Positions 46,009 to 54,995 of a DNA stretch of 64,000 nt are shown here, in pieces. The stretch covers positions 1 through 64,000 of the forward strand of contig JAUHYP010000009.1 in NCBI GenBank assembly GCA_030426265.1, given 5' to 3'. Made by a program: the position numbers and the translations under genes. The notes under the pieces were generated by a model that worked only from the letters and a program-made list of their open reading frames with translations, was not told the origin of the DNA and did not search any database. The number at the start of each line of letters is the position of its first letter. The stretch's first letter is position 1. This DNA comes from Gammaproteobacteria bacterium. Its GTDB lineage: Bacteria > Pseudomonadota > Gammaproteobacteria > Xanthomonadales > SZUA-36.

Positions 46009-47543
46009 GCGCCGCCGGCGACGGCGCCGCCAGGGCCGGCCAGGACCTCCCGGTCCTGCGGCACTGGATCGGTGGCAAGGCCGTCCCGGACCTCAGCGGC
46101 CGTCGCGGCGACGTCTTCGACCCGGCCACTGGCAGGGTGCAGGCCCGTGTGCCGTTCGCCGATGCGGTCGAACTCGATGCCGCGGTGCAGGCGGCAAAGG
46201 CGGCGTTTCCCGCCTGGGCCGCCTGGCCCGCCCTGCGGCGGGCGCGTTGCCTGTTTCGTCTCAAGCAACTGATCGAACAGCGCGCGGACGATCTGGCCGC
46301 CATCATCACCCGTGAACACGGCAAAGTGCTGGACGATGCCCGCGGCGAGGTCCAGCGGGGCCTGGAGGTGGTGGAGTTCGCCTGCGCCGCCCCGCAGCTG
46401 CTCAAGGGCGAATACTCCGACCAGGTCGGGAGCGGCGTGGACAGCTGGTCCCTGCGCCAGCCCCTGGGCGTGGCCGCCGGCATCACGCCGTTCAATTTCC
46501 CCGCCATGGTGCCCCTGTGGATGGCGCCCCTGGCCCTGGCCTGCGGCAATGCCTTCATTCTCAAGCCTTCGGAACGCGACCCGGGCGCCTCGATGCTGCT
46601 GGCGGAACTGTTCGCCGAGGCCGGCGTGCCCGAAGGCGTGTTCAGCGTCGTGCATGGCGACGCCGAAACGGTCGACGCCCTGCTGGCGCATCCCGACATC
46701 GCCGCCGTCAGTTTCGTGGGCTCCACGCCCATCGCACGCAAGATCGCGGAGACCGCGATGGCCAGCGGCAAACGCGTGCAGGCCCTGGGTGGCGCGAAAA
46801 ACCACCTCGTGGTCATGCCCGATGCCCCCATCGACCGTGCGGCCGACGCCCTGGTCGGCTCGGCCTTCGGCGCCGCCGGGGAACGATGCATGGCCGTTTC
46901 CGTGGCGGTGGCGGTGGGCGATGAAGTCGCCGACGCGCTGATCGCGGCGCTGGCGCCCCGTGTCGCCGCCCTGAAGATCGGGCCGGGCGACGAGCCCGGG
47001 GTGGAGATGGGGCCCCTGGTCACGGCGGAGCATCGTTCCCGGGTGCTCGGATACGTCGAGTCCGGCGTGGCCGAAGGCGCCGAACTCGTCGTGGACGGGC
47101 GTGGGTACTCGAACGAGCGCCACCCGGAGGGTTTCTTCCTGGGCGGCTGCCTGTTCGATGGCGTGACCCCGGCCATGCGCATCTACCGGGAGGAGATTTT
47201 CGGACCGGTGCTCTGCGTGGTCCGCGCGGCCAGTTACGCCGAGGCCCTGGCCCTGGTGAACCGCCACGCCTACGGCAACGGTGCGTCCATCTTCACCCGC
47301 GAAGGCGACTGTGCGCGGGATTTCGCGCAGAGGGCGCAGGCGGGCATGGTCGGCGTGAACGTGCCGATTCCGGTGCCCATGGCCTTCCACAGCTTCGGCG
47401 GCTGGAAGCAGTCCCTGTTCGGTGACCACCACGTCTACGGCCCCGAGGGAGTCCGCTTCTACACGCGCCTGAAGACCGTCACGCAGCGCTGGTTCGAGGG
47501 TGAGCGCGAGGGGGCGGACTTCCACTTCCCGCAATTGGGTTGA
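46005..47543 (+). CDS. mmsA: CoA-acylating methylmalonate/malonate-semialdehyde dehydrogenase
   Basis: This 512-residue aldehyde dehydrogenase of the MmsA/BauC/IolA group has [20 protein letters not shown], the family-specific [20 protein letters not shown] and catalytic Cys295 in [12 protein letters not shown]. It converts malonate semialdehyde to acetyl-CoA, CO2 and NADH. The GTG start overlaps the aminotransferase stop by 4 nt. In this context beta-alanine degradation is more likely than valine catabolism, as no other valine genes are near. Confidence 0.92.
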
Positions 47544-47616
47544 ACCCGGGGCGGTTCACCACAATCCAATGCTTCGGCCAACCACGGCCCCGAATTCCCC
47601 ACGGGAGGATTGAACG

Positions 47617-48513
47617 ATGACGCGCATCCTGTTGTTCCTGGCCACCAACGCGGCCGTCCTGGTGCTGATTTCCGTCGTGTTCCAGGTGCTCGGCATCGAG
47701 GGCATTCTGGCTGAGAACGGCGTGGACCTGAACCTCCAGGCGCTGCTGGTGATGTCGGCGGTGATCGGGTTCGCCGGTTCCTTCATTTCGCTCGCCATGT
47801 CCAAGTTCGCCGCCAAGCGGGGTATGCGGGTCCAGGTCATCGAACAACCGAGGAACCAGGCGGAACAGTGGCTGGTGGACACCGTGCGCCGCCAGGCCGA
47901 GGCCGCCGGGATCGGCATGCCGGAAGTGGGCGTGTTCGATTCGCCGCAACCCAACGCCTTCGCGACGGGCATGCGCCGGAACGATTCCCTGGTGGCGGTG
48001 AGCACCGGGTTGTTGCGGCACATGAGCCAGGACGAAGTCGAGGCCGTGCTCGGCCACGAGGTGGCGCACGTGGCCAATGGCGACATGGTCACCATGGCCC
48101 TGATGCAGGGCGTCGTGAACACCTTCGTCATCTTTCTTTCGCGGGTCATCGGCCACACGGTCGACCGCGTGGTCTTCAAGACCGAGCGCGGCTACGGCCC
48201 CGCTTACTACATCGTGAGCATCCTGGCCCAGATCGTCCTCGGCATCCTGGCCAGCATGATCGTCATGTGGTTCTCGCGGCGTCGCGAATTCCGCGCGGAC
48301 GCCGGCGGCGCGCAGTTCGCCGGCCGCGAAAAGATGATCGGCGCCCTGCGCGCCCTTCAGCGCCAGAGCGAGCCGGAGGACCTGCCGGGGCAGTTCGCCG
48401 CCTTCGGGATTTCCGGCGGTATGGGGCAGGGCATCAAGCGCCTGTTCATGAGCCACCCGCCGCTGGCCGAACGCATCGCGGCCCTGGAATCCGGGCGGGG
48501 CGTGAATGTTTGA
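47617..48513 (+). CDS. htpX: Membrane zinc metalloprotease HtpX
   Basis: HtpX is an inner-membrane quality-control protease. The 298 residues have two N-terminal membrane helices (5-24, 43-62), the zinc site [13 protein letters not shown] (His147, Glu148, His151) and [10 protein letters not shown] supplying the third ligand, then two further helices around 160-220. The final [13 protein letters not shown] is family-typical. SD GGGAGG lies 8 nt before the ATG. Confidence 0.96.
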
Positions 48514-48558
48514 GCGCGTGCCTACAATGCATCACGGGAAACGATAAGCTGCAAACCC

Positions 48559-49311
48559 ATGAGTGATCCCATCCAGGTCGAAACCAGGGCGACAGGCCTT
48601 CACGACATCCTGCGCGAGTTTGGCGCCGTTGTCGTACCGGGCGTGTACACGGCGGACGAGATTGCCGAGGCGCGCAAAACGGTGCTCGAACACCGCCACC
48701 TGATGCACAACACGCGCAGTACGCCGTCCTCGCGCCATTTGGCCGGATTCCACCGCTTTCCGCGGCTGGAGGGACTGCACCGTTTGATCACGGCCCAGCC
48801 GGTGCTGCGCGCCCACATGGAGGCGTTGTGCGGGGCCGAAGTGCGAACCATCGGCCTCAGCGACATCACCGTGAACCGCTCCCAGCAGTGGCACAAGGAC
48901 CTGTTGAGAGGCGAGTTCACGGACGTACTGGACCACGCCACGCCCTGCGCCGCCTGGCACGGGAACGTGTTCAAGGTCATCGTCTACCTGCAGGATTCGC
49001 AGTCGCTGAAGATCCTGCCCGGTTCGCACCGCCAGGACATCTGCCTTGAGAACGACACCCACGCGATTCCGATGGAGGGCACCGAAGTCACGACGCTGTC
49101 GGCCCGCGCCGGTGATGCCGTGATCATCGACATCTGCACCACCCATCGCGGCTCGCCCGAATCGGCCTTTGCCGGCGAGGAAGCGGAGCGCGACCCGAAG
49201 ATTCTCGTGTCGACCGTGTTCGGCAATCCGGCATCCGCGCTCACCCGGCGCATGGAAGTGGGCAACATGAAACGCATGGCGGCCTGGATGGAGCGCCACG
49301 CGCACCACTGA
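48559..49311 (+). CDS. Phytanoyl-CoA dioxygenase (PhyH)-family Fe(II)/2-oxoglutarate oxygenase
   Basis: The 250-residue predicted hydroxylase has the iron ligands His112-x-Asp114 (QQWHKDLL) and the distal His196 followed by Arg (ICTTHRGSPES) for 2-oxoglutarate. The N-terminal FGAVVVPGVYTADEIAEARK is common to PhyH proteins. KILPGSHRQD is also diagnostic. The substrate is unknown. It converges on the unrecognised gene at 49317 with only 5 nt between, next to sulfotransferase and glycosyltransferase genes, so a small-molecule or glycan substrate is possible. Confidence 0.85.
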   Translation: MSDPIQVETRATGLHDILREFGAVVVPGVYTADEIAEARKTVLEHRHLMHNTRSTPSSRHLAGFHRFPRLEGLHRLITAQPVLRAHMEALCGAEVRTIGLSDITVNRSQQWHKDLLRGEFTDVLDHATPCAAWHGNVFKVIVYLQDSQSLKILPGSHRQDICLENDTHAIPMEGTEVTTLSARAGDAVIIDICTTHRGSPESAFAGEEAERDPKILVSTVFGNPASALTRRMEVGNMKRMAAWMERHAHH

Positions 49312-49316
49312 GCGCC

Positions 49317-50417
49317 TCAGCGATACCGGTCGCGAACCCCGGGGCGGAACCGGCCCCCGCTGAGCCGGTTGAGCAGGTGGTACAGCAGGTCTTTCCAGGG
49401 GGCGTGGTACACCGACACCGCCCTCAGCTTCCGGGCCCGGGCCAATGCCTTGTTCGCACGCCTCAATTTCGACTTTGGCACCGTCTCCCGGGCGGTCCAC
49501 TCGTCGTCGAGCCGGTACAGCGGGCCGATGACCGCGGCGTTGATGGGTGAGCGGTAGAAGCCGCCAAGGTCGGCCGGCTCCCGGATGTCGCCTTCCACGC
49601 CCAGCCGACCCTGGCGTTGCAGCCGGGATTGCCGCAAGTCGTCGTCACGCACCAGCCGGGACAGCGAAAACAGCACCAGTTCGCCGATGTCCCGGGCCAG
49701 CAGCTGCCGGTAGAGGCGCTCGTGGTCCGCATCCGTGCCGGTCGCCAGTTCGTCCCGGGAAACGGCCGTCTGCACCTGCAGGCCGCTGAACACCGCGCTG
49801 CGCGGTGCGGACTCCCCGTCTTTCGCGCCCAGCCAGATCCGCAGGCCCCAGGGCAGGGCTTCGGCGCCGAGGGCGACCTGTTCCGGCAGGGCGTCCAGGC
49901 GCAGGACCACCACGTCACCGCCCGCGGAAACCGGGGCCAGCGAGTGGGCGCCCGCCGGGGACCACTCCGGCTCGCCGGATTCCATCGGCATCCACACGGC
50001 GGAATCGCCGACGACCGGTGAACGGAGCATGCCTGCGCCGGAGTTCCACTGTTGGCGATGACGGACCAGCCCGCCGATGAGATCGTAGGTCCCGGCGTCC
50101 AGCCATGTGAACGCGGCACGCAGTCCGGCGGCCCGTGTCATGACGCCGCCACGTGGCCAGAGGGCCAGGCGGCTCGCCGTCGGCGTGCTGGCGCGAAGGT
50201 GCCGGCGCAGGCTGAACGTGGCATGGCATTCGGGCAGGTACACCAGGTCCACGTTGTCCTGGCGGGCCACCCGGTCCAGGTCGGGGTCGCGCGCGAAACC
50301 GGCCAGGATGCACAGCCGGGCCTCGATATCGTCCAGGCCCCCGAAGCCGTGCATGGCGGACAGGGCCTCACCGACGTCCAGGGCGTAAGTGACCAGCACG
50401 GTGTCCGGCGTGCTCAT
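49317..50417 (-). CDS. Uncharacterised protein of the sulfotransferase/glycosyltransferase group
   Basis: Not recognised. The 366-residue soluble protein lacks a signal peptide and clear catalytic motif. It reads as an alpha/beta domain first (DTVLVTYALDVGEALSAM, VDLVYLPECHATFSLRRHL), then a beta-rich middle (SGEPEWSPAGAHSLAPV, DVVVLRLDALPEQVALG), and a strongly basic C-terminus (KSKLRRANKALARARKLR). The gene overlaps the sulfotransferase gene by 4 nt (ATGA) and ends the minus-strand series. The early beta-strand/helix alternation could be glycosyltransferase-like, but this is a guess. Confidence 0.65.
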   Translation of the reverse strand: MSTPDTVLVTYALDVGEALSAMHGFGGLDDIEARLCILAGFARDPDLDRVARQDNVDLVYLPECHATFSLRRHLRASTPTASRLALWPRGGVMTRAAGLRAAFTWLDAGTYDLIGGLVRHRQQWNSGAGMLRSPVVGDSAVWMPMESGEPEWSPAGAHSLAPVSAGGDVVVLRLDALPEQVALGAEALPWGLRIWLGAKDGESAPRSAVFSGLQVQTAVSRDELATGTDADHERLYRQLLARDIGELVLFSLSRLVRDDDLRQSRLQRQGRLGVEGDIREPADLGGFYRSPINAAVIGPLYRLDDEWTARETVPKSKLRRANKALARARKLRAVSVYHAPWKDLLYHLLNRLSGGRFRPGVRDRYR

Positions 50418-51214
50418 GCGCCGAACTCCGCGGCGACGGCATCCATCAGTTCGTAATCCTGTCGATAGACCTCGCGAACCGATCGTTCCAGTTCCGGTGT
50501 CAGGGCGGGTGGTCGCGGGTCATTGGCGGGCGAGGCATTGAGCCGTTCGCCCTCGAATCGGTAGTGCGCCGCGGCGCCGGTGCGCTCCGCCACCCGCGCC
50601 AGCCCGTCGGCCAGCGAACCGACGTTGCCGATGTGGTCGTAGCGGATGAGGTCACGCGCGAGGATGCGCGATTGCGGGACCCAGTGCCGGTCCATTTCCC
50701 AGGGATGTTGCCGGCACACGGCGCGGACGAAACATTCGAAGGAGACGTCTTCATTCAGCGCACGGCGGTAGCCGATGCGCCTTCGGCCACCCTCCGAAAG
50801 CGCCCACTGGCGGTTGAGAATCCATTCCCGGCGCATCGGTCGGGGGTCGTCGTAGGGCTCGGCGCCCAGTCGTCGGATGCGGTTCCGGAAGCAGGACACC
50901 AGCCGCTCCATCGGGTCGCGCACGAAGGAGAAGGTGAACACGCGCTCATCCAGCAGCCAGTCGAGAAACTGGCGCTCGGGCACGTCCGAGGGCCCCAGGA
51001 AGCCCATCTCCCGGCGATTGTGGGGGCTCACCCCCTCGGGCCGCGCCGTTCCGTGCGCCATGCGGTACAGCTCCGACTTGACCAGGGAACAGGCGTTCTT
51101 GCTGATGGCCACGTAGATGGCATTGAGCCCGGGGATATAGAGCAGGTCGTTGTCGACCGTCCGGGGGCAGTAGTGCCGGGATCGGAGTTCGTGAAAATAG
51201 GCGTCCGCCGACAT
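50414..51214 (-). CDS. Sulfotransferase family protein (carbohydrate sulfotransferase-like)
   Basis: The 266-residue protein has the two PAPS-binding elements: IYVAISKNACSLVKSEL (5'-phosphosulfate loop, about 33-49) and FTFSFVRDPMERLVSCFRN (3'-phosphate loop, about 93-111). This is the Sulfotransfer_2 pattern of carbohydrate sulfotransferases. The ATG at 51214 shares TGATG with the glycosyltransferase stop and has GGAG 9 nt upstream; a GTG at 51229 is less likely. It is coupled on both sides. It probably sulfates a glycan made by the neighbour. Confidence 0.82.
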   Translation of the reverse strand: MSADAYFHELRSRHYCPRTVDNDLLYIPGLNAIYVAISKNACSLVKSELYRMAHGTARPEGVSPHNRREMGFLGPSDVPERQFLDWLLDERVFTFSFVRDPMERLVSCFRNRIRRLGAEPYDDPRPMRREWILNRQWALSEGGRRRIGYRRALNEDVSFECFVRAVCRQHPWEMDRHWVPQSRILARDLIRYDHIGNVGSLADGLARVAERTGAAAHYRFEGERLNASPANDPRPPALTPELERSVREVYRQDYELMDAVAAEFGA

Positions 51215-52896
51215 CAGGGCTTTCTCCACCAGCGGTCGGTGGTCCTCTGTACGCCGGCTTCGGACCGCAGTTCCTGCCGCTTGCCGGGGAATCGGAATTC
51301 CGACTTTTCCAGCAGTTCGAGGACCCGCTGGAAATCATTCTTGCCTAGTCTCGAGCTTTCAAAGGCGGGATTGCTCCGCCGGTGGTGCTGCGTCAGCAGG
51401 AGGTTGGTGTAGAAGATCTTCAGGCGGTTGCCCACCAGCCGCCGGTAGTCGATGAAAAAGAGTTCATGCTGTCCGGAGAAGCGGCACTCCGGGTCCCAGC
51501 GGAGACCGTATTCGCTGAACAGGCTCGGGCGCATCAGGGCGAAATTGTTCACCGTGTCCATTTCCTGCAGGAAAAAGGTCTCGTCCAGGAAAATGCGCGG
51601 CAGATCCAGGTACTGGGCAGGCAGGAAGTCGAGACGGTCCGGTTCCTCCAGGAGCAGGTGATTGAAAGCGGTCGGAACCGGTTCCGGGACTTGCCGCCCG
51701 GATTCGTCATAGTTGAAGTTTTCACACAGACCGGCCAGCACCCCGATGTCGGGCCGGTCCGACATGACGTCCAGGGCGCGCTGGAACTCCAGGCGTTCGT
51801 CGAACAGGAAGTCGTCGTCGCAGAGGAACACGATGGGCCGCTCACAGGCCTCGACCAGGTGGTTGCGTGACACGCTGACCCCGGCGTTCTCGTCCAGGTA
51901 GCTGACCCGGCAGCCATGACGCTCGGCCGCCTCGGCGTAGGCGTCGTGGGGCGCACCCTGGACGGCGAAATGCACGTGGATGGCGTCGCCGAGCACTTCG
52001 CGAATGGAACGCACGAAGGCCAGGCAACTGTCCGGGCGATGCACGGTGGTGAAGACGAGTTCGACATCGCCGGGCGTATAGCGGGGTCTGGGTGTCGAGG
52101 GCGTTTCCAGGCGCGGAATGCCCAGTCCGCGCCGGATCGCCTGGCTCGCCAGGCAGGATCCGTTCAAGACCTGCCGGCGGGTACGGGATTTCTGGTCGTC
52201 CGAGGAACGCTTGTTGAAGAGCATCAGCAGCTTGGCATCCGGCGCGACGAGGTCGGCGAGCCGTTCCCGGTCGGATGGAACCCACCAGCGGTGTGATTCC
52301 TCGAAGTGCAGGGGGTGAAAGTGCTTCTCGGGCTCCAGGTGCAGGGTGTCCGGGAACTGATCCGCTACCGGCCCGAGCAGGCTCGCGCCCAGCTCCGTCC
52401 AACGGAAGCCCTCGTTCGCCGCCAGCTTCCGGTGGATCATTTCGTCCTGCCGGCGCAGGACCTCGCTGACGATGGCGCCGCCGGCGACGGAAGCGATGGC
52501 GCCGTTGGACAGGTTGCCGCTGGTCTCGGTCTTGCGCATTCCGTAGAACTCATGCGCTTCCAGCGCCTCGCGCATCACCGGTCCCAGGTCGACCAGGGGG
52601 ACGCAGTCGCTGTCCAGCCACATGCCGCCGAATCGCTGCAGCAGGGCGATGCGCAGGTAGTCGGCCTTGAGGGCGATGGCCGGCGCGGTGTTTCCCTTCA
52701 GTCGTATCCGGTCGAGGTCGAAGGGAAGGTCCGGCAGGTAATCGGCCAGGTTTTCCGGCGTGACCACGATGACCTCGCAGCTGGCGCACATGCGGCGTAC
52801 CGCTTCCTGGCACAGGGTGATGTAGGCCGGCTTGTGCCGTCCGGGCGGCGTTTCCCAGTATTGCCAGATGACCGGTGTGTCCAGGCCGGGACTCAT
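51214..52896 (-). CDS. Two-domain glycosyltransferase (capsular polysaccharide-type plus GT-A domain)
   Basis: The 560-residue predicted bifunctional transferase has two parts. Residues 1-250 resemble the GT32/capsular polysaccharide synthesis type: PVIWQYWETPPGRHKP, ALKADYLRIALLQRFGGMWL and DXD Asp95-x-Asp97 (WLDSDC). Residues about 275-540 look like a GT-A fold of another family: ELVFTTVHRPDSCLAFVRSI, acidic IVFLCDDDFLFDE (360-366) and a late GQHELFFIDYRRL. A start at 52896 (MSPGLDT) is chosen over an in-frame codon at 52944. It heads a coupled series with the sulfotransferase and the unknown gene. Confidence 0.78.
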   Translation of the reverse strand: MSPGLDTPVIWQYWETPPGRHKPAYITLCQEAVRRMCASCEVIVVTPENLADYLPDLPFDLDRIRLKGNTAPAIALKADYLRIALLQRFGGMWLDSDCVPLVDLGPVMREALEAHEFYGMRKTETSGNLSNGAIASVAGGAIVSEVLRRQDEMIHRKLAANEGFRWTELGASLLGPVADQFPDTLHLEPEKHFHPLHFEESHRWWVPSDRERLADLVAPDAKLLMLFNKRSSDDQKSRTRRQVLNGSCLASQAIRRGLGIPRLETPSTPRPRYTPGDVELVFTTVHRPDSCLAFVRSIREVLGDAIHVHFAVQGAPHDAYAEAAERHGCRVSYLDENAGVSVSRNHLVEACERPIVFLCDDDFLFDERLEFQRALDVMSDRPDIGVLAGLCENFNYDESGRQVPEPVPTAFNHLLLEEPDRLDFLPAQYLDLPRIFLDETFFLQEMDTVNNFALMRPSLFSEYGLRWDPECRFSGQHELFFIDYRRLVGNRLKIFYTNLLLTQHHRRSNPAFESSRLGKNDFQRVLELLEKSEFRFPGKRQELRSEAGVQRTTDRWWRKP

Positions 52897-52944
52897 GAGC
52901 GCGGGACGCCGCGCCACGCGAGCACGCCCAGGACCCGCGGCCAT

Positions 52945-53502
52945 TCAGCCTTCGCGCTGGTCTCCATGGATCCAGAGCACTTCCTTGCCGCCCTCGGCCC
53001 GGGCCAGCACGCGCCCCGCCACGAACAGGAAGTCCGAGAGGCGGTTGAGGTAACGGATGCTGACCGGGTTCACCGACTCCTCGCGCGCCAGGGACACCAC
53101 GCGGCGCTCGGCGCGGCGGCACACCGTGCGCGCCACGTGACAGCGGGCCGCGGCCTCGCTGCCGCCGGGAAGGATAAAGTCCTTCAGCGCCGGCAGGTCG
53201 GTGTTCAGGGTGTCGAGGTCGCCCTCCATCGCGGTGACGTAGGACTCGGGAATGAGGGTGACGCCGGGCATGCACAGCTCGCCGCCGAGGTCGAACAGCT
53301 CGTGCTGCACGCGGTCCAGGATGGGGCGGACGGTGGCCGGCATGTCCGCGGCCAGCAAGAGGCCGACGCAGGCATTGAGTTCGTCCACGGTGCCGTAGGC
53401 TTCGACGCGCAGGCTGTCCTTGTCGACGCGCTCGCCGTCGCCCAGGCCGGTGGTTCCGGAGTCACCCGTACGGGTGTAGATCTTGGAAAGTCGGTTGCCC
53501 AT
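52945..53502 (-). CDS. Cob(I)yrinic acid a,c-diamide adenosyltransferase (PduO/MMAB type)
   Basis: This 185-residue ATP:cob(I)alamin adenosyltransferase is of the PduO type: SKIYTRTGDSGTTGLGDGER for ATP binding, VEAYGTVDELNACVGLLLA, LPGGSEAAARCHVARTVCRR and LNRLSDFLFVAGR. It makes adenosylcobalamin for mutases or other B12 enzymes, none of which is in the window. It precedes the glycosyltransferase by 48 nt on the same strand. Confidence 0.95.
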   Translation of the reverse strand: MGNRLSKIYTRTGDSGTTGLGDGERVDKDSLRVEAYGTVDELNACVGLLLAADMPATVRPILDRVQHELFDLGGELCMPGVTLIPESYVTAMEGDLDTLNTDLPALKDFILPGGSEAAARCHVARTVCRRAERRVVSLAREESVNPVSIRYLNRLSDFLFVAGRVLARAEGGKEVLWIHGDQREG

Positions 53503-53660: not shown

Positions 53661-54995
53661 TCAGGGGCGCTGGTGGCGCAACTGGCCGGCCACCCAGGTG
53701 GCCTGCACCGCCCGGTCGTCGCCCAGGGTGATCTGCACGAACAGGGCCTCTTCCAGGCTGTCGACGAACGCCATGCGGTGGGTGACCAGGGGCGTGGACT
53801 TCATGTCCAGGACCACGAGGTCGGCCTCCATGCCCGGGGCGATGTGGCCGACCCTGTCTTCCAGGCACATCGCGCGCGCCGAGCCCCGCGTAGCGAGGTA
53901 GAAGGCCTCGCCGGCGGTGAGCGCTTGGCCGTGCACCCGGGCCGCCTGGTAGGCCTCGCTGAGCGTCTGCAGGATCGAGAAGGACGTACCGGCCCCCAGG
54001 TCCGTGCCGATGCCGACGTTGACGGGCCGCTCCTGGTTCACGGCACGGAACAGGTCCAGCGCGCCGCTGCCCAGGAAGGCGTTCGAAGTGGGGCAGTGCG
54101 CGATGGCCGCGCCGCAGTCGTGCAGGCGGCCCAGTTCCGGTTCGGACAGGTGGATGCCGTGGCCGAAGAGGGCGCGCGGCCCGCACAGCCCGGCGTGGTC
54201 GTAGACGTCGAGATAGCCCGCCCGCTCGGAAAAGAGCTGCCGGACCCATTCGATTTCGCCCGGGGTTTCCGAGAGGTGCGTCTGCAGGTAGCAGTCCGGG
54301 AACTCACGCCAGAGCTCACCGGCCGCGGCGAGCTGTTCGGCGGTGCTCGTGGGTGCGAAGCGCGGTGATATGGCGTACATCAGCCGGTCCTGGCCGTGCC
54401 AGCGTTCGATCAGGGCCTTCGAGTCGTCGTAGCCGGACCGGGCGGTGTCGAGCAGGTCCTCCGGCGCATGGCGGTTCATCAGCAGCTTGCCCGCCGCCAG
54501 GCGAAGACCCAGGCGCTGCGCCTCCTCGAACAGGGCGTCGACCGATTCGGGATGGACGGTGCAGTACACGCAACTGGTGGTCACGCCGTTGCGCAGGCAC
54601 TCGGCGAGAAACACCCTCGCGACCGTGCTCGCGAAGGCCTTGTCGGCGAACCGGCGTTCGGTGGGATAGCTGTAGCGCTCCAGCCATTCGAGCAGCCCTT
54701 CGCCGAAGGCCCCGATCATCGGCACCTGGGGGAAGTGGACGTGGGTGTCGATGAACCCGGCGGAAATCAGGGCGTCGGGCCCGTAGTCGTGAATGTCGAT
54801 GCCTGGCGGCAGTTCCGGCAGGATTGCGTCGGCCGGGCCGAAATGGGTGACGAGGCCGCCGCCCATCGCCACGATGGCGTCCGGTTCGTACACCAGGGTG
54901 TCCTCGACGCCGTGCGCGAAGGCATCGCCGGTGAACGTGATGGCGGGGCCACGAATGGCCCGGTCGGGCGCGCCGGGGGTCGCTGTCGCTTGCAT
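53661..54995 (-). CDS. guaD: Guanine deaminase
   Basis: The 444-residue amidohydrolase converts guanine to xanthine. It has GFIDTHVHFPQ (His85, His87), the guanine-deaminase segment RFADKAFASTVARVFLAECL with NGVTTSCVYCTVHPES, KLLMNRHAPEDL, and metal or proton residues in QTHLSETPGEIEWV, HGIHLSEPELG, and IGTDLGAGTSFSILQTL. The length is normal. It stands about 160 nt upstream of the cobalamin adenosyltransferase gene and is divergent from gcvT. Confidence 0.95.
   Translation of the reverse strand: MQATATPGAPDRAIRGPAITFTGDAFAHGVEDTLVYEPDAIVAMGGGLVTHFGPADAILPELPPGIDIHDYGPDALISAGFIDTHVHFPQVPMIGAFGEGLLEWLERYSYPTERRFADKAFASTVARVFLAECLRNGVTTSCVYCTVHPESVDALFEEAQRLGLRLAAGKLLMNRHAPEDLLDTARSGYDDSKALIERWHGQDRLMYAISPRFAPTSTAEQLAAAGELWREFPDCYLQTHLSETPGEIEWVRQLFSERAGYLDVYDHAGLCGPRALFGHGIHLSEPELGRLHDCGAAIAHCPTSNAFLGSGALDLFRAVNQERPVNVGIGTDLGAGTSFSILQTLSEAYQAARVHGQALTAGEAFYLATRGSARAMCLEDRVGHIAPGMEADLVVLDMKSTPLVTHRMAFVDSLEEALFVQITLGDDRAVQATWVAGQLRHQRP

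Follow-up and report, generated by a model that had tools for sequence, protein, structure and literature searches.

Gene content of the locus

The window (the whole stretch of DNA that was analysed, 64,000 nucleotides) contains a block of three closely packed genes on the minus strand, encoding a two-domain glycosyltransferase (GT), a putative PAPS-dependent sulfotransferase (ST) and an orphan protein, and a fourth gene, for a PhyH-type oxygenase, that converges on them (Table 1). The stop codon of GT and the start codon of ST have one base in common (TGATG), the stop of ST and the start of the orphan have four (ATGA), and 5 nt separate the stop codons of the oxygenase and orphan genes. An ORF check confirmed these overlaps and the gap, as well as the positions of the frames, all of which had been reported in the initial annotation. 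GT starts 48 nt from the end of pduO, or directly at it (0 nt) if the alternative ATG is used; since GT follows so closely, the block may be transcribed from the pduO side. We infer that GT, ST and the orphan are co-transcribed, the orphan probably being produced from the same message as the other two. Among the ORFs of the window, no PAPS-synthesis, sugar-nucleotide or export genes were found at the site.

Table 1. Genes of the block and its flanks, with positions in the window.
Feature	Position	Strand	Family match or remark
htpX protease, left-hand flank	47617-48513	+	NF003965, E 4e-130; near the same spot in two genus mates (synteny)
PhyH-type Fe(II)/2-oxoglutarate oxygenase	48559-49311	+	PF05721, E 5e-8, 34 bits (cut-off 22)
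Orphan protein of unknown family, 366 aa	49317-50417	-	No family match
ST, Sulfotransfer_2 protein, putative PAPS-dependent	50414-51214 (ATG start) or to 51229 (GTG)	-	PF03567
GT, two-domain glycosyltransferase	51214-52896, or from ATG at 52944	-	PF05704, PF04488, PF00535
pduO-type cob(I)alamin adenosyltransferase, right-hand flank, upstream and on the same strand as GT	52945-53502	-	PF01923, E 2e-61; adjoins mmsA in relatives

Insertion site and base composition

Synteny was used to examine the site in related genomes. The spacing between mmsA and pduO is only about 50-75 bp in four relatives (G003, G004, G010 and G014). At the same spot, two others (G001 and G005) carry htpX together with a prolyl-oligopeptidase-like gene, and another (G002) has a two-component system and a further gene there. 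The mmsA-pduO interval (window 47543-53502) is thus near-empty in some relatives and filled with differing genes in others, and for this reason we regard the spot as variable and the block as a lineage-specific insertion. It is free of mobile-element marks: no tRNA was found at the site, and the flanking repeats occur at chance level only. On the other side of pduO, guaD (window 53661-54995) separates it from gcvT; in G002, G003 and G004 the latter two genes lie closer together, leaving no room for guaD.

Close counterparts of the four genes were absent from all genus and family relatives searched. For the oxygenase and the orphan no counterpart of any kind was found in these genomes, ST had a distant match (29% identity) in one genus mate only, and GT had partial matches (at most 33% identity) in a few relatives.

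The initial annotation had proposed acquisition of the block from a lower GC content of ST and GT. Acquisition is supported by the adjacency of mmsA and pduO in the four relatives, and the difference in composition is true, though small. Overall GC is 0.648 for GT, 0.662 for ST, 0.649 for the oxygenase and 0.707 for the orphan, and GC at third codon positions is 0.83, 0.82, 0.85 and 0.87, respectively, compared with approximately 0.90 in the adjacent metabolic genes. However, htpX (0.663) and gcvH (0.654) are equally low in overall GC, and composition alone is therefore insufficient to show acquisition; it is the synteny that shows the insertion.

Sulfotransferase and glycosyltransferase

A Pfam profile search placed ST in PF03567, Sulfotransfer_2, with an E-value of 7e-23 and 82.4 bits (curated cut-off 22). 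In an alignment of nine sequences, residues K44, R104, R109, S112, H182 and W183 were invariant. We take K44 to be the 5'-PSB lysine and R104, R109 and S112 to be the 3'-PSB Arg/Ser residues, that is, the two PAPS loops. An AlphaFold2 model, built from an alignment of five sequences, had a pLDDT of 75 and a pTM of 0.75. Its top match with VIA-align was heparan sulfate 6-O-sulfotransferase (Z 9.3, rmsd 4.0, 183 residues aligned), followed by heparan sulfate 2-O-sulfotransferase (Z 8.5), and all 50 of the matches listed were sulfotransferases. Foldseek gave weak E-values with the same model, the best being 0.19; most of its ranked matches were sulfotransferases as well. The modelled structure thus has a sulfotransferase fold, and both the PAPS-type motifs and the PAPS fold that had been proposed for ST are borne out by the family profile, the alignment and the model. 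ST resembles the heparan sulfate 2-O- and 6-O-sulfotransferases, which are carbohydrate sulfotransferases of PF03567, in family profile, PAPS-site motifs and fold, but its identity to the solved enzymes is just 12-16%, and a carbohydrate is its presumed acceptor. The phage search found no match for ST.

The two-domain composition of GT was likewise upheld, with all profiles above their cut-offs. The N-terminal half matched PF05704, Caps_synth (E 4e-11, 43.4 bits, cut-off 24.5), and PF04488, Gly_transf_sug (E 4e-5, 24.7 bits, cut-off 23), and contains a DXD motif within WLDSDC. The C-terminal half is of the GT2 type (PF00535, E 5e-7, 30.3 bits, cut-off 23.3), with a DXD motif in CDDDF, and is 27-29% identical to GT2 genes from two other genomes, where these lie in glycan loci. 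Both types of profile and the DXD motifs are shared with enzymes of capsule loci, but in GT, unlike in these enzymes, the two types are joined in a single chain of 560 residues. Searches of the relatives and class genomes found no relative of GT over its full length, and the viral contigs gave no match to it.

Related gene pairs and known sulfated-capsule systems

Among 369 genomes of the class, the best relative of ST (E 3e-23) and the best relative of GT (E 1e-21) turned out to be adjacent genes of a single genome, G159, which belongs to another family. Identities are 28% to ST and, for the GT2 gene of the pair, 27% to GT; the two genes have the same order as in the block and overlap. Next to the pair lie genes for two KpsC/KpsS proteins (Capsule_synth) and for an APS kinase (PF01583, E 3e-67), together with a GT2-type and a KdsB-like gene, the predicted layout of a sulfated capsule locus. 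This was the only conserved neighbourhood of a GT and an ST that we found. Of the four plasmid-borne relatives of ST, three (from Leisingera, Paracoccus and Pseudosulfitobacter) have sugar-nucleotide or glycosyltransferase genes as neighbours. Identities between the proteins of the block and their relatives were only 22-30%. The three genes had been expected to recur as a string in other genomes; the GT and ST pair does recur, in G159, but none of the other genomes searched had the string that includes the orphan.

Sulfated capsule clusters that combine glycosyltransferase, sulfotransferase and PAPS genes have been described for Vibrio sp. KMM 8419, where the cluster was assigned to group 3 (PMC11641403), and for Cobetia marina KMM 1449, where it is of the group-2 type (KpsC/KpsS) and includes an APS kinase (PMC11766843). 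Pairs of a GT and a sulfotransferase in capsule or exopolysaccharide loci are a known kind of arrangement, and the block is not the undescribed gene group that it had been called. It has in common with the group-2-type loci carrying an APS kinase, those of G159 and C. marina, the combination of glycosyltransferases with a putative PAPS-dependent sulfotransferase, and with G159 also the order of GT before ST and the overlap of the genes. Unlike these loci, it consists of GT, ST and the orphan only and lies at a metabolic locus; the PAPS-synthesis genes, sugar-nucleotide genes and export machinery that accompany sulfated capsule or exopolysaccharide clusters are missing alongside it, and the host has no KpsC/S.

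Capacity of the host for a sulfated glycan

In the host genome, an APS kinase forms part of a 631-residue frame away from the block, and three Poly_export/Wza-type proteins are encoded on other contigs; a Wzt/Wzm-like ABC exporter is present on contig C55. With an APS kinase and export genes in the host, routes for PAPS supply and export would therefore exist. A search of the host genome for KpsC/KpsS-type proteins found none, and a capsule of the G159 type therefore cannot be the acceptor here. Another contig, C27, carries a Wzx flippase and a protein that resembles Wzy but scores under the family cut-off, a GDP-mannose dehydratase and an initiating sugar transferase, as well as a PAPS reductase and a sulfotransferase of the Sulfotransfer_3/1 type. 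Judged from these genes, the host may already make a sulfated exopolysaccharide. The region C27:1-20000 also contains a partial NAD-dependent epimerase that by eye resembles sulfoquinovose synthase, and is possibly a second, larger locus for a sulfated or sulfonated glycan. Across the 3.6-Mb genome, Sulfotransfer_1 (PF00685) had eight matches, seven of them over the cut-off (C20, C27, C95, C101, C55 and C8). The type of its HtpX and the breadth of the class sample would point to a gammaproteobacterial host.

These data bear on whether the block could be a decaying or non-functional import that finds no acceptor pathway in its host and is on its way to being lost. The restriction of the block to a single genome of the genus, the lack of relatives of the orphan and the lack of Kps capsule genes in the host would fit such a history. 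But the frames are all intact and overlapping, their codon use is near-native, and the host has a PAPS supply, export genes and another polysaccharide locus that bears a sulfotransferase. We therefore consider decay improbable.

The orphan protein

The orphan had no match in Pfam, even at an E-value of 10, or in NCBIfam, PHROGs or PADLOC, and a single match, at E 0.51, among PDB sequences. Homologs were found in none of the 151 relatives, the 369 class genomes, the plasmids or the viral contigs. In blastp, phmmer and hhalign comparisons, the orphan resembled no neighbour of the related loci more closely than expected by chance, and single-sequence structure prediction reached a pLDDT of only 31. 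One match among the genome contigs (L078, a Micrarchaeota contig) was rejected as chance, as it falls on the plus strand where no frame of at least 100 aa is listed.

The absence of homologs everywhere searched and of a confident structure model might suggest that the frame downstream of ST is spurious and not a gene. We think this very unlikely: the frame spans the entire gap between ST and the oxygenase gene, it begins with an ATG inside the 4-nt overlap, and its GC content at the three codon positions (0.74/0.51/0.87) follows the coding pattern typical of this DNA. As far as sequence comparison can tell, the protein is a real orphan. It probably belongs to the ST/GT pathway, because its start overlaps the stop of ST; the likeliest identity is a transferase, either accessory or highly diverged. 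A more far-reaching proposal, that it is a new type of enzyme or an acceptor-recognition partner which, with ST and the fused GT, makes an undescribed sulfated glycan, is in our view a long shot.

The oxygenase and the nature of the acceptor

The oxygenase translation contains HKD and a later THRG. The initial annotation had grouped this gene with the glycan genes. The convergent orientation and short gap stand, but its tie to their pathway consists of its position and the shared absence from relatives (no homolog was found in the 40 relatives searched for it). In the literature, a search for PhyH in combination with sulfotransferase, glycosyltransferase and capsule yielded no report. The oxygenase could have a tailoring role or be a passenger that has nothing to do with the glycan genes.

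Instead of a polysaccharide, the block might modify a secreted small molecule, a glycolipid or a glycoprotein with a sulfated sugar, the oxygenase then serving as a tailoring enzyme. The oxygenase gene adjoins the block and is, like it, missing from relatives, and the site has no polysaccharide export gene. The location of the oxygenase gene on the opposite strand speaks against this, as do the structural matches nearest to ST, which are enzymes acting on a polysaccharide, heparan sulfate, and the capsule locus in which the GT and ST neighbourhood is conserved. A target of this kind is unlikely, if somewhat less so than decay of the block.

A sulfated surface glycan had been predicted as the product. 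The protein families, the modelled fold of ST and the relative of the pair in a locus of the sulfated-capsule type support this; a surface glycan as the acceptor, and the sugar that is sulfated, are what we infer from them. We judge it reasonably probable that the block is a strain-specific accessory add-on, placed between htpX and pduO, that lengthens a surface glycan and adds sulfate to it. The bifunctional GT would extend a glycan, either lipid-linked or of the LPS type, by one or two sugars, and ST would then move sulfate from PAPS onto one of these sugars. PAPS would come from the host's own APS kinase, and the finished glycan would exit via the existing polysaccharide export systems of the host. 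Evidence that weighs against this reading is the lack of PAPS-synthesis, sugar-nucleotide and export genes at the site, the lack of KpsC/KpsS in the host, the low identities to relatives, the orphan and the weak Foldseek E-values for ST.

The add-on is best read as transferable and, apart from the orphan, as an ordinary case of bacterial surface-glycan variation. It would represent a small glycan-sulfation add-on that lies at a variable spot among housekeeping genes, outside a polysaccharide locus, the kind of change by which close relatives come to differ in their cell surface. Should the glycan be sulfated, the locus would provide a compact GT and ST pair to assay; otherwise it would be a case of routine surface-glycan variation.
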